Shown here piece by piece: positions 11,677 through 54,795 of a stretch of 64,000 bases of DNA (the first letter of the stretch is position 1; each line of letters begins with the position of its first letter). Source of the DNA: Gemmatimonas sp. (lineage in GTDB: Bacteria > Gemmatimonadota > Gemmatimonadetes > Gemmatimonadales > Gemmatimonadaceae); contig JAAVWC010000004.1 of the NCBI GenBank assembly GCA_023910675.1, forward strand, positions 62,001 to 126,000. The letters run 5' to 3'. Under the pieces are notes generated by a model. That model was not told the origin of the DNA. It saw nothing but the letters and a program-made list of their open reading frames with translations, and did not search any database. A program made the position numbers and the translations under genes.

Positions 11677-11682
11677 GGCTAC

Positions 11683-11709
11683 ATGATAGTGATTTCTCAT
11701 CATTTATCA
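11683..11709. promoter_or_regulatory. Putative Zur-type operator before the merC-like gene
   Basis: TGATAGTGATTTCTCATCAT followed by TTATCA. It matches the long sites at 31508 and 32822 (TGATAGT, then TTTCTCA or a variant, then TA-rich TTA). It lies 7 bp upstream of the MerC start and would block its promoter. The rpmE2-like gene on the other strand starts 184 bp away. Confidence 0.6.
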
Positions 11710-15564: not shown

Positions 15565-15785
15565 GGGATCGCGCCTCGATGAAGAGAGAAAGGCGCGGGC
15601 CGGCCAGCCCGCAGGCCCACGGACTGACCGACCCGCCGTCAGCGGGTGGCCATAACGTGTCTGGAGCACGACATGACGCCCCGCGGCATGGATGCAGCCG
15701 AGAAGAACGCGTACGTGCTATGTGGGAATCGGCGCGTGCGCGTTGCGCACCGCATCAACGCGCGGACATATCCGCGCGGATGGCA

Positions 15786-22544: not shown

Positions 22545-23972
22545 TCAGCCGCCGTGAACGCTCACACGACGCAGATGTTGAACACCCCACAGGCCAATGA
22601 GCAGTGTGGGGGCGAACATGATCCACAGCAGCCCGCCAACACGAGCGGGCATCGTGGACGCGGCCTCTTCCGCATAGGTGAAGCTCGGCCGGCCCGCCAA
22701 GTCTGCGGGACCGAATGGTTGCGCGGCGAAAACACGCCTGAAGAAAAAGTCCTGCCACGCGCGATGATGGCGATCGACCTGAGCCTCGTAGTGAAGCGTA
22801 CGATCGATACTGCGGCCGGCGATATCGTGCAGCACATCTTGCATGAGGATGGCGGGGCTCAAGAGGCGGGCCCTATTGGCAACCATACGCTGTGCCACGA
22901 GTGCGGAGTCGAACGCCGCAAAGGTTGGCTGCAGTGCGGCGGTCGCCTGCTCCTGTTGCGCAATGGTACGCGCCCACGCATTCCCACTGGCCGAGGTCCC
23001 GAACTGCGCCATCTCGGGATGATCCGCCAGAAATTGACTCACGGCGGTGTCGCCCTTGGACGCCGCTTCATCCGACGCACGACGGAGCGCTGTCGTCAGC
23101 GCCACGCGCGAGGGAGACGGGTACCATGTGGTCACCACTGCTGCAATCGTGGAAGGCACCACCACCACCACCAGCAGCCACACGCCCAGCAGCAACACGG
23201 CATTCGTAGCGGACGACCGCCCAAGCGCGTTCACCGCGATGACCACGGCAATCCAGAAGAGGCCGTAGACCAACAGAGCGAGCGCCCACAGCGCGAGGCG
23301 CACCAGCGCTCCGTCTGCCGTGAGGGATACGCCGGTAAGCAGCGCGAGCGTCACCGACAGCCCCAACGTCATGGCGAGCACGAACCCCACACGCACCGCC
23401 ACTTTGGCCATGAGCACCCGTCGAGGCGAGATGGGCTGCGACATCCACAGCGGCATGGTGCCCAGATCGCGCTCACCAGACACCACATTGTAGGTGAGGG
23501 CGAGCAACAACAGCGGATAGATGAACACCATCACGAACGCGAGATCGAAACGACCCGCCAGCAGGTTGTGCGGATTCTCGATTTCGTCGGTCGCCATGAA
23601 CGACTGCTTGCTGCGAATGGAGACGCGAGCATAGTACGGAAACAGATCGCTGGCCCCAACCGCCAACGTGGCCAGCGGGCCTGGCGGCAGGACCGCGTGC
23701 GTGGTGGCCCCGGTCGCCCCCAATGCGCCAACGGGAGGGACCTTGGCGGTCGTGTCTCCCGCCGCCTGTCGCTGAAGCAGGGTATCCAAGCGGGCAATAC
23801 GTTGCCGGTCGCCCGCCACGACTTCCTGTAGCGTGTCGCGCTGAAAGGCTGCCCACTGCCACCCGTTCCATGCGCCGTATGCCGTGATGCACCCAAAGAC
23901 CAGCAGCAGGAGCCACGGCGTACGATCGGCCGCCAGCAGCCGCCACTCGGTCCGCAAAAGCGACTGCCGCAT
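22545..23972 (-). CDS. ABC-2 transporter permease, DUF3526-type
   Basis: A 475-residue membrane protein, with start ATG 23972 overlapping the stop of the previous permease gene (TGATG). One N-terminal span (WLLLLVFGCITAYGAW), a large extracytoplasmic loop of about 130 residues, then a block of five to six spans containing NVVSGERDLGTMPLWMSQPISP, the typical ABC-2 coupling segment, and a second loop before the last span. It pairs with a related permease and an ATPase as one exporter-type complex. The substrate is unknown; the Zur-like operator before the operon suggests a link to metal starvation. Confidence 0.82.
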   Translation of the reverse strand: MRQSLLRTEWRLLAADRTPWLLLLVFGCITAYGAWNGWQWAAFQRDTLQEVVAGDRQRIARLDTLLQRQAAGDTTAKVPPVGALGATGATTHAVLPPGPLATLAVGASDLFPYYARVSIRSKQSFMATDEIENPHNLLAGRFDLAFVMVFIYPLLLLALTYNVVSGERDLGTMPLWMSQPISPRRVLMAKVAVRVGFVLAMTLGLSVTLALLTGVSLTADGALVRLALWALALLVYGLFWIAVVIAVNALGRSSATNAVLLLGVWLLVVVVVPSTIAAVVTTWYPSPSRVALTTALRRASDEAASKGDTAVSQFLADHPEMAQFGTSASGNAWARTIAQQEQATAALQPTFAAFDSALVAQRMVANRARLLSPAILMQDVLHDIAGRSIDRTLHYEAQVDRHHRAWQDFFFRRVFAAQPFGPADLAGRPSFTYAEEAASTMPARVGGLLWIMFAPTLLIGLWGVQHLRRVSVHGG

Positions 23973-25390
23973 CAGGCCACTCGCGGCGCGGGGGTGCGCC
24001 ACAGCAATCCGAGCGATACCAGCACCCAGAAGGCCAGCACGAGCAACGCCGCGCCCTGATGACGAAGCGCCGTGGAGACGGGCGGTGCATCGTACTCGAA
24101 GGGCTCATAACGCGCCCACAGTTCAGGCGGCGCCTTCCAGTCCCATTCGCCCGTGCGGGTGTTGTCGCGGAAGTAGTTGTTGGTCCACTTGATCAGTCCA
24201 CGACGATACAACTCGGCCTGCACCGCAAAATCGCGATGCTGTTCGACGTCGGTGCCGGCCAGTCCCATCGAGAGGGAACGCACGGCCAGCAACGGCGACA
24301 GCAAACCAGTCCACTGCGTCAGCGTATTCTGTGCGCGATACTGGTTGTACAGATCGCCAAAGTGCTTGTCGAACACGGTATTGGCGTATTCCTCCGACGC
24401 CTGCATGGCGATGGCGTCGAAGTTCACGGGCAAGGCGTCGAGGGTGACGGCGCGATACTCGCGCAACGCTTGCGCTTCTACCGCCTTGCGCCGCTCGTCG
24501 GCGGGGTTGTGCCCATCGAGCCCACGCTCCGTATCGCGTTGCACGGCGGCCTGGAACGCAAAGGCCGACGGCGTGGGGTACGCGCGACGGGCCAGATCGG
24601 CGACCGCACGCGGCGCGACCAGCGAGTTCACCGTCCAGAACGCGAGAAGTGACAACAGCGCGAGACGCACCGTGGTCGTGCGCGCCGACACCGCGAGGGC
24701 GAGCACCAGCACCACTACGAAGTACAGCAGGTAAGCGCCAATCATGGCCAGAAAGCGGAGCACATCGTCTGTGCCACGACCAAAGCCGGCGCCCAGCGCC
24801 AGCGTGGCCACGCCAAGAATGGTGGCAGGTACGAGCACAGTAGACAGTGCGGCCGCGAGCCCCATGGCCTTGCCCATCATGAGCGTGCGCATGGGCACGC
24901 CGAGCGCGGCCAGTTGTCGCAGCGTCCCGGTTTCGCGTTCGCCGGCGAACGCCGGAAACGCGAGCATCACGATGAGCAGCGGAACGAGCAACTGCAGCAC
25001 CGCGGCCGCCGTCCATTCGCCAAACCGGGCAACCGAGGCTTGATCCATGGCCGGACGCCGAGTGAACTCATTCTGCTTGTGTGCCTCAAGCCACGTGGTC
25101 ACGCCGGTGTAGTTGTCCACGCCATAGTCGACAAACGACAACGGCATTTTGGGCTTGAAGACCCACAAGCCATAGTGGGCCGCTGAATGCGGGTTCTTGG
25201 CGCCCTGATTGACCCAGAAGCCGCGCATGGTTTCTTGCGCGGCGGCGTGTTCGCGCGCGAGGGCACGGGAGCTGGTCGCACCGGTGGCCAGCGCCACCAG
25301 CATGAGTCCCAGCAACAGCACACTCGCCCAGCGGAATCGACCGTCGCGAAACATCTCGGTCATTTCCTTGGCAGCAATGCGTCTGATCAT
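23972..25390 (-). CDS. ABC-2 transporter permease, DUF3526-type
   Basis: A 472-residue protein related in layout to the next gene: N-terminal span (WASVLLLGLMLVALATG), large outside loop (with FVDYGVDNYTGVTTW), then spans around FAGERETGTLRQLAALGVP, the conserved coupling motif, and a second loop ending in a last span (AALLVLAFWVLVSLGLLW). Two such non-identical permeases plus one ATPase form a heteromeric ABC-2 system. It lies 9 bp after the ATPase gene. Confidence 0.82.
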   Translation of the reverse strand: MIRRIAAKEMTEMFRDGRFRWASVLLLGLMLVALATGATSSRALAREHAAAQETMRGFWVNQGAKNPHSAAHYGLWVFKPKMPLSFVDYGVDNYTGVTTWLEAHKQNEFTRRPAMDQASVARFGEWTAAAVLQLLVPLLIVMLAFPAFAGERETGTLRQLAALGVPMRTLMMGKAMGLAAALSTVLVPATILGVATLALGAGFGRGTDDVLRFLAMIGAYLLYFVVVLVLALAVSARTTTVRLALLSLLAFWTVNSLVAPRAVADLARRAYPTPSAFAFQAAVQRDTERGLDGHNPADERRKAVEAQALREYRAVTLDALPVNFDAIAMQASEEYANTVFDKHFGDLYNQYRAQNTLTQWTGLLSPLLAVRSLSMGLAGTDVEQHRDFAVQAELYRRGLIKWTNNYFRDNTRTGEWDWKAPPELWARYEPFEYDAPPVSTALRHQGAALLVLAFWVLVSLGLLWRTPAPRVA

Positions 25391-25399
25391 GGCGGCGCC

Positions 25400-26131
25400 T
25401 CAGTCCTTCATGTGAGCGAGATACAGCCGTTCGAGATCGGCGTGCCCGACTTCGGCGGTATTCATCTGCGCTACGAGCGCGCCGTGCTTCATGATTCCCA
25501 CGCGCGTGCCGGATTCCTTGGCGCGAAACAGGTCATGCGTGGCCATGAGAATGGCGGCCCCACGCGCGCGCATCTGCCCAATGAGTTCGGAGAATTCGTT
25601 GGACGCTTTGGGATCCAACCCTGAGGTCGGCTCGTCGAGCAGCAGCACATCGGCGCGTTTGGCGATAGCAATCGCGATGCCCACCTTCTGCCGCATCCCC
25701 TTGGAAAAACCGCCGACGCGTTGGGTAGCCTGATCGGCGCGCAATCCGGCGTCGACCAGGAACTGCACGAGTTGGTCGCGCGAGAACTGCTCTCCTGTGG
25801 CCAATCCGGCGAAGTAGTCGAGGTTCTCCAGCGCCGTGAGTTGGCGGTAGAGCATGACCGTTTCGGGGATATACGCCAGATGACGCTTGCTGCCGAGCGG
25901 GTCGCGCGTGACGTCGATGCCGCACACCAGCGCCTGCCCACTGGTGGGCGCCACGAAGTTGAGAAAGAGATTGATCGTGGTGGTTTTGCCGGCGCCGTTG
26001 GCGCCGAGCAGGCAGTACACATCCCCGGCCCCAATTTCGAGGTCGAGATGATCGAGCGCCGTGACCGCACCGTAGGTTTTGGTGAGCGCTCGGGCGGTGA
26101 GGCGGGGGGCCACAGCGGAGGAAGTGGTCAT
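25400..26131 (-). CDS. ABC transporter ATP-binding protein of the ABC-2 system
   Basis: A 243-residue ATPase from ATG 26131. Walker A GANGAGKTTT, Q-loop region around YIPETVMLYRQL, signature-like FSKGMRQKVGIA, Walker B VLLLDEPTSGLD, and H-loop MATHD are all present. The start was chosen because upstream codons run into the operator at 26154-26169, 23 bp away. NosF-like length and sequence character. First gene of the ABC-2 operon. Confidence 0.9.
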   Translation of the reverse strand: MTTSSAVAPRLTARALTKTYGAVTALDHLDLEIGAGDVYCLLGANGAGKTTTINLFLNFVAPTSGQALVCGIDVTRDPLGSKRHLAYIPETVMLYRQLTALENLDYFAGLATGEQFSRDQLVQFLVDAGLRADQATQRVGGFSKGMRQKVGIAIAIAKRADVLLLDEPTSGLDPKASNEFSELIGQMRARGAAILMATHDLFRAKESGTRVGIMKHGALVAQMNTAEVGHADLERLYLAHMKD

Positions 26132-26153
26132 CGGGATGGGCGTAGACAATGAG

Positions 26154-26169
26154 TGATAGTGCGCTATCA
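26154..26169. promoter_or_regulatory. Putative Zur-type operator of the ABC-2 operon
   Basis: A perfect palindrome TGATAG-TGCG-CTATCA. The TGATA/TATCA half-sites are separated by six bases, the same geometry as the perfect site before the TonB receptor gene (52636-52655). It lies just upstream of the ATPase start. Confidence 0.7.
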
Positions 26170-26319
26170 TTACCGGCAAATGGCATCTCGCGCAAGGACT
26201 TTTCGCTGGTGGGCCTCACCTACTTCGTACGCTGCCCTACCTGATCACGGTTGGAGAGTCCGACACGCTGCCGCTGCTGGTGTGGCCCCCTGCCATCCGG
26301 GCGTTTGCGCTGCAGCAGC

Positions 26320-27255: not shown

Positions 27256-27368
27256 GGTGAGTGCGCGCGAGGGGGGAGGATCGACGATTTCCGGTGCATA
27301 GGCCGAAAGCTCAGGCTTTAGCCGTGGAATGCGAAAGATGGGTGGACAGACGACCTCATACAGCATAA

Positions 27369-27393
27369 TGATAATAGACTCGCAATAACTTAT
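27369..27393. promoter_or_regulatory. Putative Zur-type operator between COG0523 and DUF3299 genes
   Basis: TGATAATAGACTCGCAATA followed by ACTTAT. It closely matches 37673-37697 (TGATATTGCACTCGCAATA). Placed between two divergent genes, it could control both. The DUF3299 start lies 16 bp beyond it. Confidence 0.65.
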
Positions 27394-27409
27394 TCCTCGG
27401 AGGGACGTG

Positions 27410-30190: not shown

Positions 30191-30208
30191 ATTGCAAACA
30201 CACTATCA
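30191..30208. promoter_or_regulatory. Putative Zur-type operator before the ZIP-permease fusion gene
   Basis: ATTGCAAACACACTATCAT, on the minus strand ATGATAGTGTGTTTGCAAT. It shares TGATAGTG and GCAATA elements with the other sites and lies about 30 bp before the start at 30162. Confidence 0.5.
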
Positions 30209-30254
30209 TCTGCAGAGACCATCGCTCTTTCGAATTGTCGCCCGGCAGTCGCTC

Positions 30255-31076: not shown

Positions 31077-31448
31077 TCAAACTTGGCGACAGGACGCACA
31101 TTCGCCGTGCAAGACCACCTCGTGTCGTTCATGGACAAAACCGGGTGGAACCCACGACGAAATGGCGCCGATACACCCCGGAAGCGTGAAGACCTGCTCA
31201 CATAGCCGACATCGGAAGTAGTGGTGATGTTGGCTGATCGTCCGCTCGAACCGTGTCGGTTCTCCCGGGAGCTCCACGATGGTGAGCCATCCCTCTTCCA
31301 GAAGGAGCCCAAGTGTCCGGTAGACCGTGGCAATGCCCAGCCCTTCATACCGCTGACGAGCGGCTGACAGAGTCTCGGCGGCGGTCATTGGACGTCCCGC
31401 CTGTTCAAGACTGGCCGTGATGGCGTTGCGCTGCCGAGTGCTTTTCAA
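31077..31448 (-). CDS. Fur-family regulator, probable Zur
   Basis: A 123-residue Fur-family protein. DNA-binding part: RQRNAITASLEQAGRPMTAAE and GLGIATVYRTLGLLLEEGWL. Metal part: TISQHHHYFRCRLCEQVF, then HERHEVVLHGECASC, supplying His and two CxxC zinc sites. The start at TTG 31448 is uncertain. Its place in the middle of the zinc island, with an operator 60 bp upstream at 31508, makes it the best candidate for the Zur of this regulon. The second Fur homologue at 53415 is an alternative. Confidence 0.85.
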   Translation of the reverse strand: MKSTRQRNAITASLEQAGRPMTAAETLSAARQRYEGLGIATVYRTLGLLLEEGWLTIVELPGEPTRFERTISQHHHYFRCRLCEQVFTLPGCIGAISSWVPPGFVHERHEVVLHGECASCRQV

Positions 31449-31507
31449 AGGTCCGGTCGGTAAGGGCAGGTGATTCGCATCCGGGTGTACCCCTCGCTTT
31501 TACTTGT

Positions 31508-31532
31508 TGATAGTTATATATCACTATTGTTA
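31508..31532. promoter_or_regulatory. Putative Zur-type operator between zur-like and DsbA-like genes
   Basis: TGATAGTTATATATCACTAT followed by TGTTA: inner palindrome ATAGT...ACTAT. It lies between two divergent genes and could autoregulate the Fur-family gene as well as the DsbA-like one. It aligns well with 32822-32846. Confidence 0.65.
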
Positions 31533-32753: not shown

Positions 32754-32821
32754 TACCGCCGTCACACCACCGGGCCGACCATGGAAGGTCGCCTGTTCCC
32801 CGATCTTGCATCGTCAATTAT

Positions 32822-32846
32822 TGATAGTAGTTTCTCACTACTGTTA
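32822..32846. promoter_or_regulatory. Putative Zur-type operator of the rpmG-COG0523 operon
   Basis: TGATAGTAGTTTCTCACTAC followed by TGTTA, with AGTAGT/ACTACT symmetry. It is 26 bp upstream of the L33 start. The same arrangement occurs at 11683 and 31508. Confidence 0.7.
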
Positions 32847-32871: not shown

Positions 32872-33030
32872 ATGGCCAAATCCGGACGGGTTCAGGTGAA
32901 GCTGCGCTCCACCGAGAGCCATTACATGTACGTCACGACCAAGAATCCGCGCACCATGCCCCAGCGCATGGAAAAGCTGAAGTATGATCCGCACGTGCGG
33001 CGGCATGTGCTCTTCAAGGAATCGAAATGA
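32872..33030 (+). CDS. rpmG: 50S ribosomal protein L33, zinc-independent form
   Basis: A 52-residue L33: [20 protein letters not shown], then [16 protein letters not shown]. The two CxxC pairs of zinc-binding L33 are absent. In other bacteria such Cys-less L33 paralogues are expressed under zinc limitation. Its TGA overlaps the ATG of the COG0523 gene (ATGA), so both are made together, and a Zur-type operator precedes it. Confidence 0.93.
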
Positions 33031-34283
33031 GCAACGAAAGCGCGACCGTTGATGCACGGCTCCCGGTCACCGTGCTCTCCGGGTTTCTTGGCGCCGGCAA
33101 GACCACGCTGCTGAATCATGTCTTGTCCAATCGCGAAGGGCTGAGAGTGGCCGTGATCGTGAACGACATGAGTGAGGTCAACATCGACGCGCAGCTGGTG
33201 CGCGGCGGCGAGGCGGCCCTCTCACGGACCGAAGAAAAGCTGGTCGAGATGACCAACGGGTGCATTTGTTGCACCCTGCGCGACGATCTGCTCCTCGAGG
33301 TCGCGCGCTTGGCCGCCGAGGGGCGCTTCGACTATCTGCTCATCGAGAGCACGGGGATCGGCGAGCCGCTGCCGGTGGCGGCCACGTTCACGTTTGAGAC
33401 GGAGGAAGGGGTCTCGCTGTCGCACGTGGCGCGGTTGGACACCATGGTCACGGTCGTCGACGCCCACCGCTTCCGTCAAGACCTCGGCTCCCTCGACGAC
33501 CTCCGCGAACGACAGATCGCACTCTCCGACGACGATGAACGCACCATCCCGGACCTGCTCATCGATCAGGTGGAGTTTGCCAATGTCATCGTCATCAACA
33601 AGGCGGATCTGCTGACCGAGACCGAACTCGGCGAATTGCGGGCACTGCTGCATCACCTCAATCCCGACGCGGAGCTCATTGTCGCCACCCGTGGCGTGGT
33701 GTCTCCGTCGCGCATTCTGGGCACGGGCCGTTTCGATTTCGAGCAGGCCGAAGCGGCGCCGGGGTGGCAGAAGGAGCTGGCCGGAGAGCATATCCCGGAA
33801 ACAGAGGAGTACGGCATCAGCAGCTTCGTCTATCGGGCGCGCCGGCCGTTTCACCCGGAGCGTCTCTGGCGCGCGGTCGATGCGGGACTCCCCGGCGTGC
33901 TGCGCGCAAAAGGATTTTTCTGGGTCGCCACGCGGCCGGATATGGTGGGCACGTGGTCGCAGGCGGGACAGCTGCTTGAGGTCAACCCCGGCGGTTACTG
34001 GTACGCCGCCAGCGACCCGGACTCGTGGGACGTGGATGACGAGGAGCGCGAGATCATCGAGGGGCACTGGCATCCCGAGGTCGGTGATCGGCGCCAGGAG
34101 ATTGCCGTGATTGGCCAGCGGCTCGATCAGCCCGCGCTCACGGCCATGCTCGATGCCTGTCTTGTGACGGAAGAAGAGCACCGCGCCGGCCCGTCGTTGT
34201 GGCAGACCTTCACCGATCCGTTTCCCGAGTGGAGTGAAGTGGAAGTCGAGGAAGAAGACGACGTCGATGATGCACGCGTGTAA
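33027..34283 (+). CDS. COG0523 zinc metallochaperone GTPase
   Basis: A 418-residue GTPase with P-loop [20 protein letters not shown], the metal-binding NGCICC motif, ESTGIGEP, and NKAD in VINKADLL. The C-terminal CobW_C domain contains FWVATRPDM and [10 protein letters not shown], and the tail is very acidic ([12 protein letters not shown]). It resembles the ZigA/ZagA-type class that delivers zinc to client enzymes under starvation. It is coupled to rpmG upstream and to a second COG0523 gene downstream (TAATG). Confidence 0.92.
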
Positions 34284-37621: not shown

Positions 37622-37672
37622 GGGAGAGGCTCCGCCGGGTATGGGCGAAAAACGGTCGCCGAAGGGTACTAT

Positions 37673-37697
37673 TGATATTGCACTCGCAATATACTTA
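37673..37697. promoter_or_regulatory. Putative Zur-type operator between PepSY operon and ferredoxin gene
   Basis: TGATATTGCACTCGCAATAT then ACTTA; the core ATATTGC-ACTC-GCAATAT is a perfect 7-bp palindrome. It sits between two divergent units, about 52 bp from one start and 59 bp from the other. Confidence 0.75.
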
Positions 37698-40989: not shown

Positions 40990-41020
40990 GCGAGGCCCTT
41001 GAATGGAGGAACAGTGTTAT

Positions 41021-41046
41021 TGATATTGCGCTTTCAATATATTTGC
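41021..41046. promoter_or_regulatory. Putative Zur-type operator between COG0523 operon and cbiMNQO
   Basis: TGATATTGCGCTTTCAATAT then ATTTGC; core ATATTG...CAATAT. It lies between two divergent operons: 32 bp from the minus-strand start at 40989 and 60 bp from cbiM at 41106. Confidence 0.7.
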
Positions 41047-41105
41047 AAGCTTCGACCATTCCCCGCGGGTCCCGGGGCTCCCCCAGTCACCCCTGCTCAG
41101 GCGCT

Positions 41106-42100: not shown

Positions 42101-42121
42101 GCGCTGGCTCCACCGCCTTCC

Positions 42122-42877
42122 GTGATCACCCCCTCCTCAACGCGGTGGGAAAAGCATCACCCGGGTGAGCGTGCGCTGCTGTCCGGCGGTTTGCTGCTGA
42201 TTGCGCTGTGGCGCGTTGACCTCGGACCAGCGCTCGTTGTTCTTGTGGTGACAACCGCGAGCGCGATGGCCGCGGGACTCTCGCCGGTGTTGTGGGCGCG
42301 CTGGATGGCGCTCCCGCTGGGCTTTGTCACGCTATCCGTCATTCCCTTCGCGATGGCGTCACCGGCGCCGGGGCTGTCTGGTGCGGCACTTGCCGACGGT
42401 GCGTGGTGGTCTCCCACCGGTGCTGTTCGCGGCGTGGCCCTTGGGTCCCGTGCGCTCGCTTGCGCCAGCTGCGTCGTGCTGTTTGCAGCCACGACCCCCA
42501 TTCACCGGTGTGCGCTGCTACTGCGTCGGGTTGGCGTTCCGTCCATGCTGACGGACGCGATCGTGCTCACCATTCGACTGCAAGACGTCGTGCGGGAGCG
42601 CTTTCTCGCGCGCGCACGTGCCGCACGTCTGCGTCTGGGCAATCACTCGTGGAGCGCTCGCTGGCGTACCAGCGCGTCTCTCGGTGCAGGACTGCTGCTC
42701 GATACAGTCGTCCGCGCACAGCGCCTGGAGCGAGGCTTGCTCTTGCGCGGTGGGTTCTCGACCGAGCGCGTGGTCGCTGGCGGGTGGGATCCCTTGTCCG
42801 CGCGTCGTATCGCGGGTGTGCTATGCGTTCAACTGTTCACCGCGTGGCTGGCATCGCTGGTAGCGACGAGCCCATGA
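42122..42877 (+). CDS. cbiQ: ECF transporter transmembrane subunit, CbiQ type
   Basis: A 251-residue membrane protein with several spans. It has the two coupling motifs of T-components: ARAARLRLG and QRLERGLLLRG, which contact the ATPase. GTG start at 42122. It lies between the CbiN-like gene and the ATPase gene. Confidence 0.85.
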   Translation: MITPSSTRWEKHHPGERALLSGGLLLIALWRVDLGPALVVLVVTTASAMAAGLSPVLWARWMALPLGFVTLSVIPFAMASPAPGLSGAALADGAWWSPTGAVRGVALGSRALACASCVVLFAATTPIHRCALLLRRVGVPSMLTDAIVLTIRLQDVVRERFLARARAARLRLGNHSWSARWRTSASLGAGLLLDTVVRAQRLERGLLLRGGFSTERVVAGGWDPLSARRIAGVLCVQLFTAWLASLVATSP

Positions 42878-42890
42878 GTCGTCAGCATCC

Positions 42891-43673
42891 ATGACGGCCG
42901 TACTCGAAGCTACGGCCGTTTCCGTGCGATTTGATGACGCGCGGCTGGCCCTCAAGTCCGTCTCGTTCATGCTGGCCCCCGGCGAGCGGGTCGCGTTGCT
43001 TGGCGCGAACGGTTCCGGAAAGACGACATTGTTAAACGTCTTGGCCGGTATCCTGGCACCGTCCTCCGGCGAGGTACGCCTGCACGGACAGCTCGCGAAT
43101 TTCTCCTCTCACCAACAGCGTCGCTGGCGCACCGCGATCGGGATGGTGCTGGCCGACGTTGACGATCAACTCATCGCGCCAGTCGTCCGGGACGATGTCG
43201 CATTCGGGATCCGCAATGCCACGACGCGATCGACGCAGGTTACCGAGCTGACACTGCTCAACCAGGTTGACGACGTCCTGGCTCAGCTCGGAATTGCCGC
43301 GTTGGCGGATCGCGCCATCCACACCTTGAGCCTTGGCGAACGACGGCGCGTGGCGTTGGCCGGTGTGCTGGTCATGCGACCGGAGATCATTCTGTTGGAC
43401 GAACCGACCGCCAATCTCGACCGCCGGGCCCGCGAAGCGCTTCGCGAGCTGCTCGAGCGGGCGAGCGCCGACGAGCGCGCCGTGTGTCTCGCCACCCATG
43501 ACACCACGTTCGCCTGGGAATGGGCGACACGAGTGGTGGTGCTCGAGCAGGGCCGGATCCTCGCCGAGGGGCGAACGCAGGCGATCTTGCGGGATGAGGC
43601 GCTGCTCGCGCGGGCGGAGCTGGATCCTCCCCGACCGGACCGTGGGTTTCGGGATACCTCTACCACGGATTGA
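42891..43673 (+). CDS. cbiO: ECF transporter ATPase subunit, CbiO type
   Basis: A 260-residue ATPase: Walker A LGANGSGKTTL, Q-loop region FSSHQQRRWRTAIGMVLADVDDQL as in EcfA/CbiO, signature LSLGERRRVALAG, Walker B IILLDEPTANLD, and H-loop CLATHD. It completes a full M-N-Q-O transporter. The last 14 bp overlap the convergent DsrE gene. Confidence 0.92.
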   Translation: MTAVLEATAVSVRFDDARLALKSVSFMLAPGERVALLGANGSGKTTLLNVLAGILAPSSGEVRLHGQLANFSSHQQRRWRTAIGMVLADVDDQLIAPVVRDDVAFGIRNATTRSTQVTELTLLNQVDDVLAQLGIAALADRAIHTLSLGERRRVALAGVLVMRPEIILLDEPTANLDRRAREALRELLERASADERAVCLATHDTTFAWEWATRVVVLEQGRILAEGRTQAILRDEALLARAELDPPRPDRGFRDTSTTD

Positions 43674-45143: not shown

Positions 45144-45166
45144 CTATTGCGCTTAGATTATCAATA
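45144..45166. promoter_or_regulatory. Putative Zur-type operator before the DUF2911-DsrE unit
   Basis: CTATTGCGCTTAGATTATCA; on the minus strand TGATAATCTAAGCGCAATAG, matching the TGATAAT...GCAATA form at 27369. It lies 28 bp before the DUF2911 start. Confidence 0.6.
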
Positions 45167-46062: not shown

Positions 46063-46977
46063 TCAGCGCGCGTCGGTCACCCAGCGTCGAAACAACGCCA
46101 CGGCTCCACTGCTGTCGTTCTGAATGGCGACGGCCCGTTCGCGACGGTAACGGGCATACACCGGCGCTGCTGCCGCACGCAGCGCCGTTTCCTGCTGGCT
46201 TTGCGGGGCGCCCTTGGGGACCGCAAACACGAAGCTGGACAGCGTGGGCGCGTCGCCACTGCCGGCGGGATACTTGTACCACGTCTCAATGCGCCGGAAA
46301 TCACGCGGGACCAGCTTGCCGCTGGCATCGCCCTCTTCGCCCGCGCGCACAAAGAAGTCGACGGCATCGTCGGGATAGCCGAATAGATAGCCGTACCCGC
46401 GCCACCGCGGCGACCGCGGCGCATTCTCCACGGCGAGGATCACCTCGCGCGGATCGGTGGAGACGGTGACGCCCAACGTGGCAAAGAACGACGCATGTGC
46501 TTCAATGGTGCGCCGCACCGCCGCCCGATGAAAGATCACCATGGACGTGTTGCGCACCTCCGATGAATCACGGCGACGTTGAGTGGCCGTAAACACTTGC
46601 ACGAACGCACCGATCTCGCCGCAACTGAGCGCGGCGGCCATGCGTCGCTGCTGGTCCAACGTCGCCAATGCCGCACTATCGATGGTGGGCGCAATACGCA
46701 CGGTCAAGTCGCGCACATCGCTCGAGATGGGCTTGATGCCGCCGGCCAGCGTATAGAGTCCCTCACGATCGGCGAACTCAAGCAGCACGCGATCGGCATC
46801 CCGTCTGTCTGCGGCGGACAGGGAGCTCACCGAAAAACAGGCCGCCGTTGAGCCACCACGTTGCTCCTGCGCCGTCGTCTGGTTCACAGCGTCGTTTGCC
46901 GTACCGCCGCGCACCGCACACGCATTCGCCACCACGGTCCCTACCATCAGCATCGCGAGCGGCGCCCGTCTCCGCAT
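46063..46977 (-). CDS. Probable lipoprotein of the TonB-receptor operon
   Basis: A 304-residue protein. ATG 46977 follows GGAGGAGCA, a strong ribosome-binding site, which decides the start. Signal MRRRAPLAMLMVGTVVANACAVRG with a Cys in a lipobox-like position. The rest is mixed alpha/beta, with CFSVSSLSAADRRDADRVLL and ETWYKYPAGSGDAPTLSSFVF. Family not recognised. It is the last gene after the receptor, DUF4876 and DUF6850 genes, 44 bp downstream of the latter, and may be an additional surface component. Confidence 0.65.
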   Translation of the reverse strand: MRRRAPLAMLMVGTVVANACAVRGGTANDAVNQTTAQEQRGGSTAACFSVSSLSAADRRDADRVLLEFADREGLYTLAGGIKPISSDVRDLTVRIAPTIDSAALATLDQQRRMAAALSCGEIGAFVQVFTATQRRRDSSEVRNTSMVIFHRAAVRRTIEAHASFFATLGVTVSTDPREVILAVENAPRSPRWRGYGYLFGYPDDAVDFFVRAGEEGDASGKLVPRDFRRIETWYKYPAGSGDAPTLSSFVFAVPKGAPQSQQETALRAAAAPVYARYRRERAVAIQNDSSGAVALFRRWVTDAR

Positions 46978-47020
46978 TGCTCCTCCATACATCATCCCGA
47001 ACTCCCGAGCCGTAGGGCTC

Positions 47021-48562
47021 TCAGAAAACTTCCAACGCCAACGTAAAAGTGTGGGCCGCCAGCCCGCGACGACCATCAAAGAGTACGCCGCGGCTTTGCT
47101 GACTGGCGCCAACGAGCGAAAGCCGCGAGGCAAGCTGACCGCCGTGCAGACGGTCCCAGGCGAGCATGAATTGCCCTCCGGTAGCCGGTATCGCGGCCAC
47201 CGCGTAATCGGCATCAACGAGTACCGGCGTGAGGCGGGTGGGGCGCGCCGCCACACGCGCCGTGTTCGTAACTGCGTGATGTGTCACCCCCAACTCGGCG
47301 ACCCACCCGTGATCGGTGCGTTGCCACCGTCGTCCACCACGCAGCGTGAGCGGAATACGGGTTGCCTGCCACCGCGTTTCTGCGGCTACGTCGCGCGCGA
47401 CAAACGTGTGGAGCGCCACGTCCATCGAGGCCGACCATGGCGCACGCACGCGTTCGGTGCCCCGCCACCACGAGGCGCTCGCGTGCAGTTGGCGACCCTC
47501 GGCCGTAGCGTTGACCGCTATGAACACAGGATCGCGACCGCGCAGCGTTTCCTGCTTCGCCAGCAGGTCGAGTTCGCCCCCACTGGCACCACCCTGCCGA
47601 CGGATGGCTGCACGGAGATCACCGCGCACGCGTCTGCTGTGCCCACCACTCACCGGGGACGCAATGCCGTCACGGACGGAGTCTTGCTCCACGCGAATGG
47701 TGGCGCCAGTGGCAATCTGCCAACGCGCACTCCGCCACGCATATCCGCCGTGGCCACCCATCACGCCACCCAGCAAGGCCCGCTCGGCCGAAATGAGTTG
47801 CGTGCGATCGAAGGTGGAGATGCCACGCAAGCGGAACACCACCGGCACCTCGGTGGTGGTGCCGCCTCCGATTTCGAGATCTTCACGGTGCCAGCCGATC
47901 ATGGCGCCGAGCCCCAGCTGATGCACGCCTCGCTGCCAGCGTATCGAGGGAGAGAGTTCCGCGACGCGGCGCCGAAAGAGTGGGCGCGGGTCGTTGCGGC
48001 GTGCGCCCTGCCCCAGCCCGTAGTCCACTGGAAGCGCGACGGTAAACCCACGCCACGATGGCGATATGATTGCCGCTGCGAGCACCAGCCGATCACTGCG
48101 GAAGGTCCCGCCAACGGAGTCGGCCCACACGTATGCCGACGTGAGCGACGCAATCGATTGATTGCGCCACTGCACATCGGATTCGTGTTGCTTGGCAAAA
48201 GCAGCCTGTCCCCAGAGGCGCCATTTGCCAGCGGTTTGCCCACCTTCGGCGAGCACCAGGCCCTCGCGGTTGGTTGCCGCCGCCTGCGGTCGTCGCCAAT
48301 CACCAGCCACCGAATGCGTACGCACCACGAACCGCCGCCACACGGCGGGCATGTCATCGTGCGCCGCCATGAGTCGTGCCGTGCGTAACAACCCGGGCGC
48401 AGTGTCGAGCGACACGCGCACTGCGCTACCCGAGTGACAGCAGATGCCGAGCGGCGACGACGCGGCGTATGGGGTGGCCTGCGCCCACAACGGCGCCGCA
48501 CTCACAACACACAGCGCAGCAACAGCACCGGTCAATGCCGCGTCGCGCACCGCCACGATCAC
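47021..48562 (-). CDS. DUF6850-like outer-membrane beta-barrel protein
   Basis: A 513-residue protein with a signal peptide (to about residue 27, APLWAQA). The remainder alternates aromatic and polar residues in beta strands and ends in LAAHTFTLALEVF with a terminal Phe, as in outer-membrane barrels. It includes DYGLGQGARRNDPRPLFRRR, reminiscent of DUF6850 proteins. The GTG start overlaps the stop of the DUF4876 gene (GTGA). Likely an outer-membrane partner of the receptor. Confidence 0.72.
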   Translation of the reverse strand: MIVAVRDAALTGAVAALCVVSAAPLWAQATPYAASSPLGICCHSGSAVRVSLDTAPGLLRTARLMAAHDDMPAVWRRFVVRTHSVAGDWRRPQAAATNREGLVLAEGGQTAGKWRLWGQAAFAKQHESDVQWRNQSIASLTSAYVWADSVGGTFRSDRLVLAAAIISPSWRGFTVALPVDYGLGQGARRNDPRPLFRRRVAELSPSIRWQRGVHQLGLGAMIGWHREDLEIGGGTTTEVPVVFRLRGISTFDRTQLISAERALLGGVMGGHGGYAWRSARWQIATGATIRVEQDSVRDGIASPVSGGHSRRVRGDLRAAIRRQGGASGGELDLLAKQETLRGRDPVFIAVNATAEGRQLHASASWWRGTERVRAPWSASMDVALHTFVARDVAAETRWQATRIPLTLRGGRRWQRTDHGWVAELGVTHHAVTNTARVAARPTRLTPVLVDADYAVAAIPATGGQFMLAWDRLHGGQLASRLSLVGASQQSRGVLFDGRRGLAAHTFTLALEVF

Positions 48563-49812
48563 GGCGCGGCGAATCCGCGCGGTGTGGGACGCGCAAGGAT
48601 CTCGAAGTCAGCGCTGCTGTTGTTCGAATCACGAAGCACGCGACGGGTACCGATGGTCGTCGCGATACGGCGCCGTGCCGACTCGCTGGTGTACGTTCCC
48701 GTGGCAAACACGAAGCCGGCGTCGAGCGCCGCAGGGATGCGCTTGTACGCCGCGCTGTTGCCGTTCTGCAGCGCCTCAAAGGCGTCCACGACCAGTTCGT
48801 TGGGCACGCGTGTCACCCACGTCCCCGTGGTACCGGGCACCAACGTGCTGTCGAGGGCCGCGACATTGGCGGATCGGAAAATGACCAGACCGGGTCCGAA
48901 CACCGGCATCAACCAATCGAAGCCGCCGCGATGCACGACGCGGGTGAGATTCGGCACCGATGGCGAATCGAGATCACGCCCATCCGGGCGCAGATTGAAC
49001 GTTTCCCAGTCGGCCGACGCAAGATTCACGGGACTCGCCGGGTTGCCGTTGGGATCGTTGCGATGATCAATGCCATCTTGCGCAATCACGATGCTCCTGC
49101 CCGGAGCAATGGGATGTTGACGACCGGTGCCGGGAATCTGATAAATGCTGGAGACGAACACGCTGCCGGTCTGTGACTGCAACGGCGTAGGCACCGTCGT
49201 CGGATTGATCTGTCCGGCCGGGCCAAAGGCATCGGCGATCAGCAGCCCGTCGGCATACACGGTATCGGTGGCGTTGTTGTAGATCTCCACGAACTGATCG
49301 GAGAAATAGGTACCGCCACTTGGCGTGCGCGAGGCGGAGTAGTACACCTCCTTGATCACCAGATCGCCGAGTCGCGACCCGCTCAACCGCTGCGCAAAGG
49401 GCCCTGTTGGCGCCGTGACGATCGCTCGCGCGGGATCGAGTGCATTGAGCGTGAGCGCCGCACGCTGTCCCGTAAGCGCGAGCGCGCGGTCGGGGTCGAG
49501 CGCCAGGCTGCTCGCAATGATGTAACTCCCGGGCAGCACGCGCGGGAAGCGCGCCAATCCCTGTGCATCCGCGACTACGGTATCGGTGACGTTGCGTTCG
49601 GTGCTGGTGAGCAGCACGCGTGCACCCGCCGCGGCCGACTGCGCAAAGGTTTCCGGAAGCGTTACCTGCACGTCAACCACAAAAGTCTGGACTTCGCTGG
49701 CGCCATCGCCGCATGCCGACAGAAGTCCAGCGGCAGTCATGGCGAGCAGGAGACGCGCGCGGAGTCGGGCACCGTCGGCGCGAAGTGAGCGGCGAGGAAT
49801 CGGGGCAAGCAT
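48559..49812 (-). CDS. DUF4876-type lipoprotein
   Basis: A 417-residue protein with lipobox LLSACGD near residues 31-37. N-terminal beta domain like a carboxypeptidase regulatory fold (VQVTLPETF, DAQGLARFPRVLPGSY), then the DUF4876 core with LVIKEVYYSASRTPSGGTYF and QFVEIYNNATDTVYADGL. DUF4876 proteins are surface lipoproteins, mainly in Bacteroidetes, next to TonB receptors; their ligand is not known. It lies 11 bp after the receptor gene. Confidence 0.78.
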   Translation of the reverse strand: MLAPIPRRSLRADGARLRARLLLAMTAAGLLSACGDGASEVQTFVVDVQVTLPETFAQSAAAGARVLLTSTERNVTDTVVADAQGLARFPRVLPGSYIIASSLALDPDRALALTGQRAALTLNALDPARAIVTAPTGPFAQRLSGSRLGDLVIKEVYYSASRTPSGGTYFSDQFVEIYNNATDTVYADGLLIADAFGPAGQINPTTVPTPLQSQTGSVFVSSIYQIPGTGRQHPIAPGRSIVIAQDGIDHRNDPNGNPASPVNLASADWETFNLRPDGRDLDSPSVPNLTRVVHRGGFDWLMPVFGPGLVIFRSANVAALDSTLVPGTTGTWVTRVPNELVVDAFEALQNGNSAAYKRIPAALDAGFVFATGTYTSESARRRIATTIGTRRVLRDSNNSSADFEILARPTPRGFAAP

Positions 49813-49823
49813 GAAGAGGCCTA

Positions 49824-52586
49824 TCAGAGGGAAGCAGGAAGTGCCGCGAGAAACTCGAGGCCGAAAAACGCCGGCTGGTTGCGGCGTTCAAAACCGATCT
49901 GACGCTGCCGTTGGTAGAGCGGGCGGTCGGCCAATGCATTGTTGGCGAACAGCGCCACCTGCGTGCGCCCCGGCAACGTCTTGGTAAGGCGCAGGTTGAG
50001 CAGATGCAGCGGCGGACGACGTTCCCACCGCCCTTCTTCGGGCGCGACGGCACGCGTGAGCGCGGCGAACTCCGGTGCGGCCGCCTGCTGTGGCGTGAGT
50101 GACGAAATGCGACCGGTGCGGTCCACGTATCCCACAGGCACGCCGTTGGTGCGCCCCACCGGCTGGTCGTCTTCACGCCAGGTGGTTTGCCACAGCACCG
50201 ACACCACCAACCCCAACGCCGGCGCGCGATGCACCAGCCGTAGCGCGGTGATGGCGCGCTGTGATTCAACACCACGGCCTCCGGCGTACACCCCAACCCG
50301 CACGGGTTGCACCGAGCCACTGATGAACTGCTCCACCGGAATCTCTACGTCGTCGTCGCGGGCTACGGTGCGGAACCATCCACCGCTGACCGACAACTGT
50401 GTACGCAGGCGCTTCCACTCCGGGCGTTCTGCCGTGAACTCGGCGCCCGTCGTGGAAATGGTGCGACTGTTGCGCGGCGCGTCGTAGAGCCCCACAAACG
50501 AGTCCACGCGAATCGGTACCGTGCGCAACAGCGGCGGCTGACCAGCGGGAAAGGCCGCCGCCTCGAACTGTGGCACCGCAATCCCCACCGGCATGCGGCT
50601 GGTACCGAACGCCCCGCGCGTTTGCTCGCGGAACAGCGCGAGTGTTCCGCTCGTGCGCCCCACCTGCCAATCGACACCGGTTTCCGACTTGGTCGCTCGC
50701 GCCGACCGCAGCGCGTCGGTACGCACGTCCACTACGCGCGTGGTAAAGAGCACCAACCGCTCGGCGGGATTGCTGGCGTAGTAGTTGAACGAGGTGAGAT
50801 CGAAGTACCGTGGCAGCGGATACAGCTGCGACAGCGTGGGGGCTTTGGTGGTGGTGCCGTGTGACACGCGCCACGTGAGGCCGCGCGTGACTGCGGTGCT
50901 GAGCGACAGACGCGGAACGAGCTGCGTGCCGTGGATACTGCCGGCGAGGGCGGGATCGATGGCATCGGCGCGCACGCCGGCGCTGGCATCGAGCGCGCGC
51001 CCGCCGAGCAACGCGCGCACTCGGTATTCCGCGTAGGCCGCCAGTTGCGATTGGGAGGGAATATCGCGATACGATTGCGGCCGGTCACCAACGCCGTAGT
51101 TCTGACGCGGGGGCTCAATAGGATCGAAGACGCGTCCATCGCCGGCGTTGCCATCGAAGCGGTACTCGAGGCCAAGCACCGGATCGTGGCGCACGCCGCG
51201 CCACGAGCGCGCGCGTCGTGTTTCGAGTCGCGCATACGCGTTGCGCGGGTCACCACTCACCGCGAGGCGTGTGAGATACTCACTGCGCCCGTAGACTCCG
51301 GGGGCGAGAGTGTCACGTCGTGCCGCGGAGAGCGGGAAGATGTCGCGAGTAATGAGCTCCTGATACTGCGAACGCTGTTTGGCGTGGCTTCCGCTTGCCG
51401 TTAACTCCGTGACCCAGCCGGTGCGCTCTCCCAGACGAACACGCACGTCCAGGCGAGCCCCCTGATCGCGTGACGACACGAGGCGCTGATAGCGCCGGTC
51501 GTCCGGATCCTGCCGACTTTCGTCGACGGCGCTGAAGGCCCGCACGCGTAGTGAGGCACCAAGGATGGGGCGTTCATGGGTGAAGGCCCCCTGCATGGTG
51601 TAGCGGGTGAAGCGATCGAGAGTAGAGCGCGGATCATCCTGACTGGACACCACGTTGGCGTCGAGGGCAAAGCCGTCGCGGGTGGCGCGCCCCCACCCGG
51701 CAACGGTGCTCGCCTCGATCGTTTGCGGGTTGGCGCGTACGTGGAATTCCGGCGCCTGCGCCCCCGCTCGCGATGTCACGAGAATGGCGCCGGCGGTCAG
51801 GTCACCATGACGTGCGCTGGGGACGCCGCGAATGACCTCCACGGATTCGATCTGGTCGGCCGGGATTTGCCGTAGGTCGAGACCACGCCCTGCCGTACTG
51901 GAAAACTGCGGCAACGCATTGGGGCCGCTGTTGAGAATGGTGAGCGTGGTTTGCAGGTTGGCATTGTTCGAGACCGGCACCCCATCCAGCACGACGCTGG
52001 TGCCGAGGGCATTGGCGCGCTCCGCTTCGGTCCCGGGGCCGGGATCACGCGCCCCGGCGGTGGGGGCCTGACGCAGCAGCGATTGACGGGCGCCGGCCAA
52101 GGTGGGATTGAGAGCAGCCTGCCCAGGCACCAGCTGCAGCACGTCGGCCAGACTGGAGGCCTGCACGTGCTCAATGGCATCACGCCCAATACGGGAGACG
52201 CTTGACCCTTCCGCGGAGCGGGCGATCTCGGTGGCGGTGACTACCACCTGCTCCAGCTGGGGGGCCCGTGCCGCGAGCCGCACAAACAGGCGAAGGGGAA
52301 CCGGACCACACGGTTGCACCGCAATGCGGCGCTCACTCAAGCCAGCCGCGATCGCCCGCAGCTCGGCGGTTTCCGGCTCCACCCGAGGAAAGGAAAAGCG
52401 TCCCTCCCGGTCGGTCACGAGCGTGACTCCCCCCAGGGTAACCGAGGCGCCAGGTACGGGCGACAGCTGCGGGAGACGCTGCACGATGCCCATGACTTCA
52501 GCAGACGCACACTTTTCTTGCGCACTTACAGACCAGTATGGCGCCATAATAGTGGCTCCTAAAAGCCACGACTTGGCTTTCAGCAT
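49824..52586 (-). CDS. TonB-dependent outer-membrane receptor
   Basis: A 920-residue receptor. Signal peptide to SVSAQ, then a carboxypeptidase-regulatory-like domain (GASVTLGGVTLVTDREGRF, about residues 35-115), a plug domain (IGRDAIEHVQASSLADVLQL, then VIRGVPSARHGDLTAGAILV), and a 22-strand-type barrel ending GLEFLAALPASL. The operator at 52636-52655 is 50 bp upstream. It heads a four-gene operon. The ligand is unknown; a zinc chelate or metallophore is inferred from context. Confidence 0.9.
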   Translation of the reverse strand: MLKAKSWLLGATIMAPYWSVSAQEKCASAEVMGIVQRLPQLSPVPGASVTLGGVTLVTDREGRFSFPRVEPETAELRAIAAGLSERRIAVQPCGPVPLRLFVRLAARAPQLEQVVVTATEIARSAEGSSVSRIGRDAIEHVQASSLADVLQLVPGQAALNPTLAGARQSLLRQAPTAGARDPGPGTEAERANALGTSVVLDGVPVSNNANLQTTLTILNSGPNALPQFSSTAGRGLDLRQIPADQIESVEVIRGVPSARHGDLTAGAILVTSRAGAQAPEFHVRANPQTIEASTVAGWGRATRDGFALDANVVSSQDDPRSTLDRFTRYTMQGAFTHERPILGASLRVRAFSAVDESRQDPDDRRYQRLVSSRDQGARLDVRVRLGERTGWVTELTASGSHAKQRSQYQELITRDIFPLSAARRDTLAPGVYGRSEYLTRLAVSGDPRNAYARLETRRARSWRGVRHDPVLGLEYRFDGNAGDGRVFDPIEPPRQNYGVGDRPQSYRDIPSQSQLAAYAEYRVRALLGGRALDASAGVRADAIDPALAGSIHGTQLVPRLSLSTAVTRGLTWRVSHGTTTKAPTLSQLYPLPRYFDLTSFNYYASNPAERLVLFTTRVVDVRTDALRSARATKSETGVDWQVGRTSGTLALFREQTRGAFGTSRMPVGIAVPQFEAAAFPAGQPPLLRTVPIRVDSFVGLYDAPRNSRTISTTGAEFTAERPEWKRLRTQLSVSGGWFRTVARDDDVEIPVEQFISGSVQPVRVGVYAGGRGVESQRAITALRLVHRAPALGLVVSVLWQTTWREDDQPVGRTNGVPVGYVDRTGRISSLTPQQAAAPEFAALTRAVAPEEGRWERRPPLHLLNLRLTKTLPGRTQVALFANNALADRPLYQRQRQIGFERRNQPAFFGLEFLAALPASL

Positions 52587-52635
52587 CGCTGTTCTCTAGA
52601 GCGCGCAGAGGGGGTACCGTTCTCCATAACGCGCG

Positions 52636-52655
52636 AATGATAACTCACTATCATT
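52636..52655. promoter_or_regulatory. Putative Zur-type operator of the TonB-receptor operon
   Basis: AATGATA-ACTCAC-TATCATT: a perfect 7-bp inverted repeat. It has the same spacing between TGATA and TATCA as the ABC-2 operon site at 26154, and is the best-formed site in the window. Confidence 0.75.
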
Positions 52656-52694
52656 CAATTGCAACACACCGACCCGCGTACGGCCCCTACGTGG

Positions 52695-53312: not shown

Positions 53313-53414
53313 GCCGGCAAATCAATCAGCCCACCGTGCGACACGCCACCGGCCACGGGCACCGGCGCTCGGTCCCCAATGCCACCGGACTGCGCGACGT
53401 GGCATATTGCACAA

Positions 53415-53786
53415 ATGGAACGCAACACCCGTCAGCGCGATGCCATTCGCCAGGTTTTCGAAGAACAGCCCCGACCGCTCGGCCCCACCGAGGTGCTCGA
53501 GTTCGGCCGTGATCACGTGTCCAAGCTCGGCATCGCCACTGTCTATCGCACCATCAATTCTCTGGTCGACAGTGGCTGGCTGGTGCCCGTAGAGCTCCCG
53601 GGCGAACCGCCGCGCTACGAAAAGTCCGGATCGGCGCACCATCATCATTTCCGCTGTCGGACCTGCAGCCGGGTGTTCGAGATCCACGGCTGCCCCGGAG
53701 ACCTCCGCGACCTGACGCCGGCGGGCTTCACCCTCGAGTCGCACGAAGTCGTGCTGTACGGGCTGTGCAACACGTGCGCGGCCTAG
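53415..53786 (+). CDS. Fur-family regulator (second copy)
   Basis: A 123-residue protein from ATG 53415. DNA-binding helix in KLGIATVYRTINSLVDSGWL; metal region GSAHHHHFRCRTCSRVFEIHGC and LESHEVVLYGLCNTC, with both CxxC pairs. It is clearly related to the homologue at 31077 (shared VYRT, VELPGEPPR/T segments). It is followed by copper genes, so it may sense zinc, iron or peroxide, and could equally be the Zur of the island. Confidence 0.88.
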   Translation: MERNTRQRDAIRQVFEEQPRPLGPTEVLEFGRDHVSKLGIATVYRTINSLVDSGWLVPVELPGEPPRYEKSGSAHHHHFRCRTCSRVFEIHGCPGDLRDLTPAGFTLESHEVVLYGLCNTCAA

Positions 53787-54358
53787 CCACGCGCTTCCGT
53801 TCGCGCTTCGTCCTCGCGGCCGCGCTACTCACCGCCTGCCAATCCGGTCCGACCTTCGAAGGCATGGCGGTCGATCCGCCGCGCGACATGCCGGCGTTCA
53901 CTTTTGCGCTCCCCGACAGTAGCCGCCTCGAGCTTGGACCCGCCGCGGGGAAGCCCACGGTGCTCTTCTTCGGCTATACGCACTGCCCCGATGTCTGCCC
54001 CACGACGCTCGCCGATTGGAAGCGGGCCAAGGCACAGTTGGGCGACAAGGCCGCGTCGGTGCGCTTCGTCTTCGTCACGGTCGATCCTGACCGCGATACC
54101 CCGGAGGTCGCGCAGCGCTATGCGCGCCAGTACGACGCGAGCTTTGAAGGCGTTTCAGGCGACGCGCAGACGACCGCGAAGATCATGGAAGCGTACGGCG
54201 TCGCGGCGGCCAAGGAAGAGGGGAGCGCCGCCAGCGGGTATCTGGTAAGCCATTCGTCGCAGGTATTCCTCGTGAATAGCGCCGGGAAACTCGTCGCGCT
54301 CTATCCATTCGGCACGCGCTGGGAAGCGCTCGCCAACGATCTGTCCAGCCTTCTGTGA
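53774..54358 (+). CDS. SCO1/SenC-type copper chaperone lipoprotein
   Basis: About 194 residues. The GTG at 53774 overlaps the Fur gene by 13 bp; start uncertain. Lipobox ALLTACQSG. Thioredoxin-fold domain with the copper-binding FFGYTHCPDVCPTTL and the conserved His in YLVSHSSQVFLV. SCO proteins load the CuA site of cytochrome oxidase. First of a copper delivery set with PCuAC and a cupredoxin-like protein. Confidence 0.88.
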   Translation: MRGLATRFRSRFVLAAALLTACQSGPTFEGMAVDPPRDMPAFTFALPDSSRLELGPAAGKPTVLFFGYTHCPDVCPTTLADWKRAKAQLGDKAASVRFVFVTVDPDRDTPEVAQRYARQYDASFEGVSGDAQTTAKIMEAYGVAAAKEEGSAASGYLVSHSSQVFLVNSAGKLVALYPFGTRWEALANDLSSLL

Positions 54359-54360
54359 CC

Positions 54361-54795
54361 ATGCGCTCGCGTTCCTTGCCGTTGGCCGCACTCCTGCCGC
54401 TGGTTGCGGCCTGCACGACTGCCGATGTTCCCGCCAGCGGACTCCGCGTGTCGGCGTCGTGGGCACGCACCGCCGACTCCGGTACCACCGGCGGCGTGTA
54501 TGTCACCATCGTGAATGCCGACAGCACCCCGGTCGATCTCACGGGAGCGAGCACGCCGTACGCGACAGCCACCGAAGTGCACGAGTCGATGATGCACGAC
54601 GGCATGTCGCGTATGATGGCGCGCCCCTCGATCACCATTGCGGGTCGCGACTCGCTCGTCATGAAGCCCGGCGGGCTGCACATCATGCTCCTCCAACTGA
54701 CACGCGCCCTGGTCACCACCGACAGTATTCCGCTCACGCTGCGTTTCTCCACCGGAGATTCGCTCGTGGTGCGCGTGCCGGTGCAAGCCCCATGA
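54361..54795 (+). CDS. PCuAC copper chaperone
   Basis: A 144-residue protein with signal/lipobox LLPLVAACTTAD. The PCuAC copper site is visible as VHESMMHDGMSRMM followed by MKPGGLHIMLLQL (His and Met ligands). It works with SCO1 in copper delivery to cytochrome oxidase. ATG 54361 lies 3 bp after the SCO stop; its own TGA overlaps the next ATG (ATGA). Confidence 0.9.
   Translation: MRSRSLPLAALLPLVAACTTADVPASGLRVSASWARTADSGTTGGVYVTIVNADSTPVDLTGASTPYATATEVHESMMHDGMSRMMARPSITIAGRDSLVMKPGGLHIMLLQLTRALVTTDSIPLTLRFSTGDSLVVRVPVQAP

Follow-up and report, generated by a model that had tools for sequence, protein, structure and literature searches.

We identified, in a 64,000-nt stretch of a Gemmatimonas sp. 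genome (from here on, the window), a set of four genes that probably represents a Zur-controlled branch of the DUF4876/DUF6850 uptake family and that would most likely import zinc or a zinc complex. This reading builds on the gene set itself, on an operator family, on the content of co-regulated genes, on conservation across phyla and on the grouping of its members in a single clade. Outer-membrane zinc uptake has been described mainly in Proteobacteria, and in the open-access literature we found no paper describing this zinc-linked set, whose fourth gene encodes a protein that we call LP4. The set is a strong candidate for the passage of scarce zinc through the outer membrane in carriers from several phyla, and it provides a testable zinc-uptake candidate for Bacteroidota and neighbouring phyla, along with predicted Zur boxes for two lineages, one in each. 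It also offers a likely role for DUF4876 and DUF6850, two families without assigned function.

The four genes and the palindrome that precedes them

All four genes lie on the minus strand. They encode a TonB-dependent receptor of 920 aa with an N-terminal carboxypeptidase-regulatory-like domain (49824..52586), a DUF4876 lipoprotein of 417 aa with the lipobox LSAC (48559..49812), a DUF6850 outer-membrane β-barrel of 513 aa (47021..48562) and LP4 (46063..46977), a lipoprotein-like protein of an unnamed family that serves as the marker of the zinc branch. Packing is tight: 11 bp separate the receptor stop (49824) from the DUF4876 start (49812), the DUF4876 and DUF6850 genes overlap by 4 bp (48559-48562) and 43 bp lie between the DUF6850 stop (47021) and the likely ATG of LP4 (46977). 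The original prediction, made from the letters of the window, had described four genes in a row, two of them with overlapping or nearly touching junctions, and the coordinates, running from 52586 down to 46063, confirm that order.

Pfam profiles for the barrel (PF00593, 1.4e-18) and the plug (PF07715, 1.1e-10) both matched the receptor above their cut-offs, as expected for a TonB-dependent transporter, and the receptor is kept in the conserved set. The CarboxypepD_reg match (2.1e-6) fell below the curated cut-off, so that "regulatory-like", as the N-terminus had been called, is fair wording. The DUF4876 assignment is firm (PF16215, 6.7e-34; 118 bits against a curated cut-off of 27.9), with PDB 4q1z as a solved homologue (E=6e-33), and so is that of DUF6850 (PF21012, 1.4e-43; 150 bits against a curated cut-off of 27). 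The structure model of the DUF6850 protein (pLDDT 88, pTM 0.85) predicts a barrel lacking a plug, and its best Foldseek matches were outer-membrane barrels (E about 1e-7, with low TM-scores). LP4 gave no match in Pfam and NCBIfam profile searches. Its model was confident (pLDDT 88), and comparison of this model with the PDB returned no match better than E=0.098. LP4 is a new protein family, matching no solved fold. Of 38 rows of the family, among them partial ORFs, 20 conform to a strict lipobox pattern; the remaining ones have either a cysteine that falls outside it or an ordinary signal peptide, which means that lipoprotein status is not universal in the family.

The perfect palindrome of the original prediction, AATGATA-ACTCAC-TATCATT, occupies 52636-52655 and precedes the receptor ATG by 49 bp; we predict it to be the Zur box of the four-gene operon. 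Consensus scanning of the region before the receptor gave a single promoter-like site (TTGCAA-16-TATCAT, 52637..52664, minus strand), whose −10 region is covered by the palindrome; such a match is no proof of function. The exact pattern occurs once in the 4.55 Mb genome. When up to 3 mismatches were allowed, the consensus scan returned 7 copies in the window against 0.25 expected, and 15 genome-wide. A weight matrix built from these 7 sites found 10 sites at ≥16 bits in the 64 kb window, 3 of them being independent gain, whereas first-order random sequences scanned at the same threshold averaged 0.05 sites. The palindrome had been presented as the best in the window. This holds insofar as it is the top scorer (31.1 bits) of the ten-member operator family; it is not the longest inverted repeat, and we discarded that sense of the claim because 15 perfect short-spacer repeats in the window have longer arms. 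In another 7 repeats the arms are as long as its own and the spacer is no longer than its own, and nearly all of these competing repeats are G+C-rich.

Operator family and Fur-family regulators in the window

The other members of the operator family precede genes that include a zinc-sparing ribosomal paralogue, a COG0523 GTPase and uptake genes, the content expected of a Zur regulon. The copy at 32820..32839, found in both scans, lies upstream of a cysteine-free (C−) ribosomal protein L33 gene (32872..33030, plus strand) and of the gene for the zinc metallochaperone GTPase ZigA (33027..34283, plus strand; NF038288, 612.8 bits against a cut-off of 600). The second L33 of the genome, encoded on contig C11, has two CxxC pairs. 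In other bacteria, C− paralogues of this kind are under Zur control (PMC9976891). The scans also located copies upstream of an ABC transporter operon (26152..26171), whose profile matches comprise an ATPase (25400-26179) and two DUF3526/ABC-2 permeases (22545..26179 as a whole, minus strand), between the second Fur-family gene and a DsbA-like gene (31506..31525), and at the 5′ end of a MerC gene (11682..11701; gene from 11284 to about 11677, minus strand). Two more copies came from scanning, one between a CobW gene (26320-27366) and a DUF3299 gene (27407-27967) that are divergent (27367..27386), the other upstream of cbiM-cbiQ-cbiO (41019..41038; genes at 41043-43673). The matrix scan added a copy upstream of a 2Fe-2S thioredoxin-like gene (37671..37690) and two weaker ones, upstream of an ArsP-type permease gene (30191..30210) and of DUF2911-DsrE genes (45146..45165). 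The presence of the operator on genes of zinc economy supports the zinc and regulatory reading given in the original prediction.

The MerC gene is divergent from an L31 gene (start at 11866 or 11893, plus strand). This L31 gene (11866-12138), the sole one found in the genome, encodes a protein of the cysteine-free type. We dropped it as evidence for zinc, given that it is the only L31 copy found and that its start is about 165-190 bp away from the operator. The CbiM-CbiQ-CbiO ECF transporter (41043-43673) is a possible inner-membrane importer of zinc or cobalt under the same regulator. Elsewhere in the window, at 13113-15669, an MbnP-like protein and a MauG-type di-haem peroxidase are encoded beside CopC and CopD, an arrangement that recalls the MbnH/MbnP copper pair.

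Two Fur-family genes in the window (both PF01475) are Zur candidates, and the nearest solved relatives of both are Zur proteins. One is located at 53379..53786 (plus strand, probably starting from the ATG at 53415) and adjoins the operon in two same-genus genomes; the structures nearest to its product are M. tuberculosis FurB 2o03 and 3mwm. The product of the second (31077..31448, minus strand) is closest to 3mwm, 7vo0 and 2o03. Both products are thereby nearest to FurB and to a metal uptake regulator from S. coelicolor; 3mwm and 7vo0 are S. coelicolor Zur. NCBIfam names neither regulator, its best match being PerR, below the cut-off. Directly 3′ of the first Fur-family gene lie genes for SCO1 and a PCu(A)C copper chaperone (53765-54795), which are kept in two same-genus genomes.

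Conservation across phyla and the LP4-bearing branch

DUF4876 is present in 17 of 298 Gemmatimonadota genomes, with strong matches in six, that of the window included. Among the other five, four have all four genes in the same order, and in the fifth (G279) the set is cut by a contig end. The same-genus genome G250 has the regulator, the receptor operon, L33 and ZigA side by side, and sites precede both the receptor and L33. Counterparts of the operator were found upstream of the receptor in the same-phylum loci L037, L038, L039, L059 and, weakly, L060, and the best operator score of the locus fell just before the receptor in L037, L039, L059 and, again weakly, L060.

The four-gene set recurs in Bacteroidota, Chlorobiota, Balneolota, Ignavibacteria and Gemmatimonadota. 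Relatives of DUF4876 are encoded in forty loci, most of which hold the receptor, DUF4876, DUF6850 and LP4 together, and LP4 comes first in Balneolota-like loci. The gene-neighbourhood search that had been proposed for the set placed a ZigA-like CobW gene near it in 14 loci, an amino-acid permease in 9, DUF3526 permeases in 7 and a Fur-family gene in 4. Because genomes hold about 0-3 strong CobW genes each, adjacency to the ZigA-like CobW is far above chance; these recurrent proteins match the ZigA type with 530-652 bits. The amino-acid permease genes lie in L098 and in the flanks of L048, L050, L052, L056-L058, L060, L062 and L073; such a gene carries a TGCAACA box once, in one genome. Arthrospiribacter ruber has three copies of the set (L066, L067, L068), each on a scaffold of its own and all with the same match statistics, which may reflect an assembly effect or a recent duplication.

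Comparison of upstream sequences revealed that outside Gemmatimonadota the set has a box of its own, the palindrome TTTGCAACA-N-TGTTGCAAA replacing the operator. The pattern TGCAA-N5-TTGCA was found upstream in 13 loci outside the phylum, compared to 1.8 expected, and TGCAACANTGTTGCA gave 3-10 sites per genome in six genomes, with 0 in a reversed-pattern control. Among the targets of this palindrome are the operon, the ZigA-like CobW gene, MerC, a Fur-family gene and a DUF3526 permease, as well as a homologue of AztD (E=4.5e-24). Despite their differing sequences, both boxes share the operon, ZigA, MerC and the DUF3526 permease as targets. We discarded DUF3299 as a further target shared with Bacteroidota, the match being just a weak one of 25 residues. 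The AztD-like lipoprotein genes stand behind the Bacteroidota box in three genomes (L095, L107, L113), and their products, rich in His motifs, are predicted zinc chaperones. AztD itself is a zinc chaperone; the matching PDB entry is titled only "AztD protein". That this palindrome is shared with ZigA and the AztD-like chaperone also favours a zinc-related regulon. The Larkinella Fur-like protein encoded beside the box has a weak Pfam match (2.9e-4) and no solved relative at E<0.001, so that outside Gemmatimonadota it is from the target genes that the regulator is predicted to be Zur.

A second sample, of Bacteroidota picked by DUF6850 (29 of 296 genomes above the cut-off), split into loci with LP4 (LP4+) and without it (LP4−). 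In the pooled samples the box was present in 16 of 33 LP4+ loci compared to 0 of 25 LP4− loci (p=1.6e-5), and ZigA in 13 of 33 compared to 0 of 25 (p=2.4e-4), p-values that are optimistic because the tests treat loci of related genomes as independent. In a DUF4876 tree of 67 rows the LP4+ rows formed one group with support 99/92, which includes two rows whose contigs show no LP4, and the DUF4876 of the window was placed in this clade and not in the LP4− part. Gemmatimonadota rows appeared at two places in the tree, with moderate support on the branches between them, which suggests two acquisitions. PDB 4q1z, which we take to be BT_1938, fell outside the LP4+ clade. BT_1938 is the counterpart of the iron-responsive PG1019 (PMC10434189), and the published iron-responsive DUF4876 loci probably belong to the LP4-lacking part of the family. 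The family is thus divided into a zinc-linked branch, with LP4 as its marker, and a remainder with iron-linked members. By the original prediction's own account, a set lying mostly away from metal genes and lacking the operator would have spoken against it; the LP4+ branch does not look like this, whereas the LP4− part has neither box nor ZigA.

Possible mechanism and nature of the metal

From the sequences we infer that the regulator is Zur, that the metal is zinc and that transport is inward, with the following division of labour. The four genes would form one operon, repressed by a zinc-loaded Zur-type protein of the Fur family bound to the promoter palindrome. On a drop in cytoplasmic zinc, Zur would leave the DNA and a high-affinity outer-membrane uptake system would be made. 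The DUF4876 surface lipoprotein and/or LP4 would capture zinc or a zinc complex and pass it to the TonB-dependent receptor for import to the periplasm, while LP4 and the DUF6850 barrel, which lacks a plug, would act as accessory parts. The inner-membrane step might be carried out by the co-regulated DUF3526-type ABC transporter and/or the CbiMQO ECF transporter, while ZigA would allocate zinc and the zinc-free L33 would spare it. The system would then be the LP4-bearing branch of a wider DUF4876/DUF6850 family with iron-responsive members.

Regarding the inner membrane, neither ZnuA nor an ABC-3 permease was found in the genome (G000, 85% complete), which provisionally indicates that ZnuABC is absent from it. 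Of the 38 set-bearing genomes, 29 gave no strong match to an ABC-3 permease. We rejected the idea that the DUF3526 transporter strictly replaces ZnuABC as a rule: strong DUF3526 relatives are present in 16 of the 29 genomes without ABC-3 but also in 7 of the 9 with it, so that the two do not complement each other, many of these genomes being incomplete.

A conserved His/Cys cluster was sought in alignments of the receptor, DUF4876 and DUF6850, and none was found. The sole conserved histidine of the receptor, H140, is shared with most of the LP4− branch, the alignment offered no convincing candidate for metal-ligand residues in the receptor, and a test made on its sequence did not reveal a ZnuD-type histidine metal cluster. 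These results argue against a ZnuD-like site for bare zinc, and with just one conserved histidine in the receptor a zinc complex is the likelier ligand. The system resembles ZnuD of Neisseria and ZnuK/ZnuL/ZnuM of Caulobacter (PMC4176598) in its TonB-dependent receptor, predicted Zur repression and co-regulation with zinc genes. It differs from them by the addition of DUF4876, the plug-less DUF6850 barrel and LP4 and by a receptor without the conserved cluster, which fits the earlier description of the set as analogous to but different from ZnuD-type receptors.

Within the zinc explanation, the receptor may take a zinc-metallophore, own or foreign, instead of free zinc, a plausible version that falls somewhat short of probable. 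It would agree with the lack of a His/Cys cluster in the three proteins, with dedicated surface lipoproteins that resemble ligand capture of the XusB type, and with the amino-acid permease found by the set in 9 loci and box-bearing in one genome; against it, neither the window nor, as a recurrent feature, the flanks contained recognisable genes for metallophore synthesis. XusABC of B. thetaiotaomicron, likened here by description, has a similar layout of surface lipoprotein and TonB-dependent transporter for a metal ligand, and differs in that XusB binds ferric enterobactin (PMC12574912). AztD zinc-uptake systems are related through the AztD-like lipoproteins under the box of the set in three Bacteroidota genomes; they differ at the outer-membrane step, and in the window the surroundings of the set showed no AztD. 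More tentatively, and as a less likely reading, the receptor, DUF4876, the DUF6850 barrel and LP4 may co-assemble as a dedicated outer-membrane importer of zinc complexes, which would have passed from phylum to phylum and come each time under the local Zur box, the DUF3526 ABC transporter being the inner-membrane step in many carriers that lack ZnuABC.

An alternative to zinc is that the set imports iron, siderophore- or heme-derived, as in the published Bacteroidota relatives, with the Fur-family regulator as an iron sensor. In low iron PG1019-22 rises 21- to 215-fold and BT3625-33 37- to 128-fold (PMC10434189), and the P. gingivalis DUF4876 gene goes down with excess hemin (PMC10470040). These loci, known here from publication, likewise have DUF4876 beside a TonB-dependent receptor, and BT3625-33 also has an ABC ATPase and PepSY proteins (PMC10434189). 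They differ from the window operon in their iron regulation, and LP4− relatives are without LP4, ZigA and box. Since the solved homologue 4q1z lies outside the LP4+ clade, LP4− loci have neither box nor ZigA, and the partners of LP4+ loci are zinc-linked (C− L33, ZigA, AztD), we regard iron as an unlikely substrate of the LP4+ branch.

Import of cobalt, nickel or a corrinoid, served by the CobW proteins and CbiMQO, would also fit the operator copy at CbiMQO and the several CobW-family genes in the window, but it is very improbable because the recurrent CobW is of the ZigA zinc type (530-652 bits) and not the CobW of cobalamin synthesis, a zinc-free ribosomal paralogue would be useless in cobalt limitation, and the recurrent flank families included no recognisable cobalamin genes. 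For the LP4+ branch we retain zinc as the most likely metal; because the DUF4876 relatives described in the literature are iron- or hemin-responsive (PMC10434189, PMC10470040), the metal may differ by lineage.
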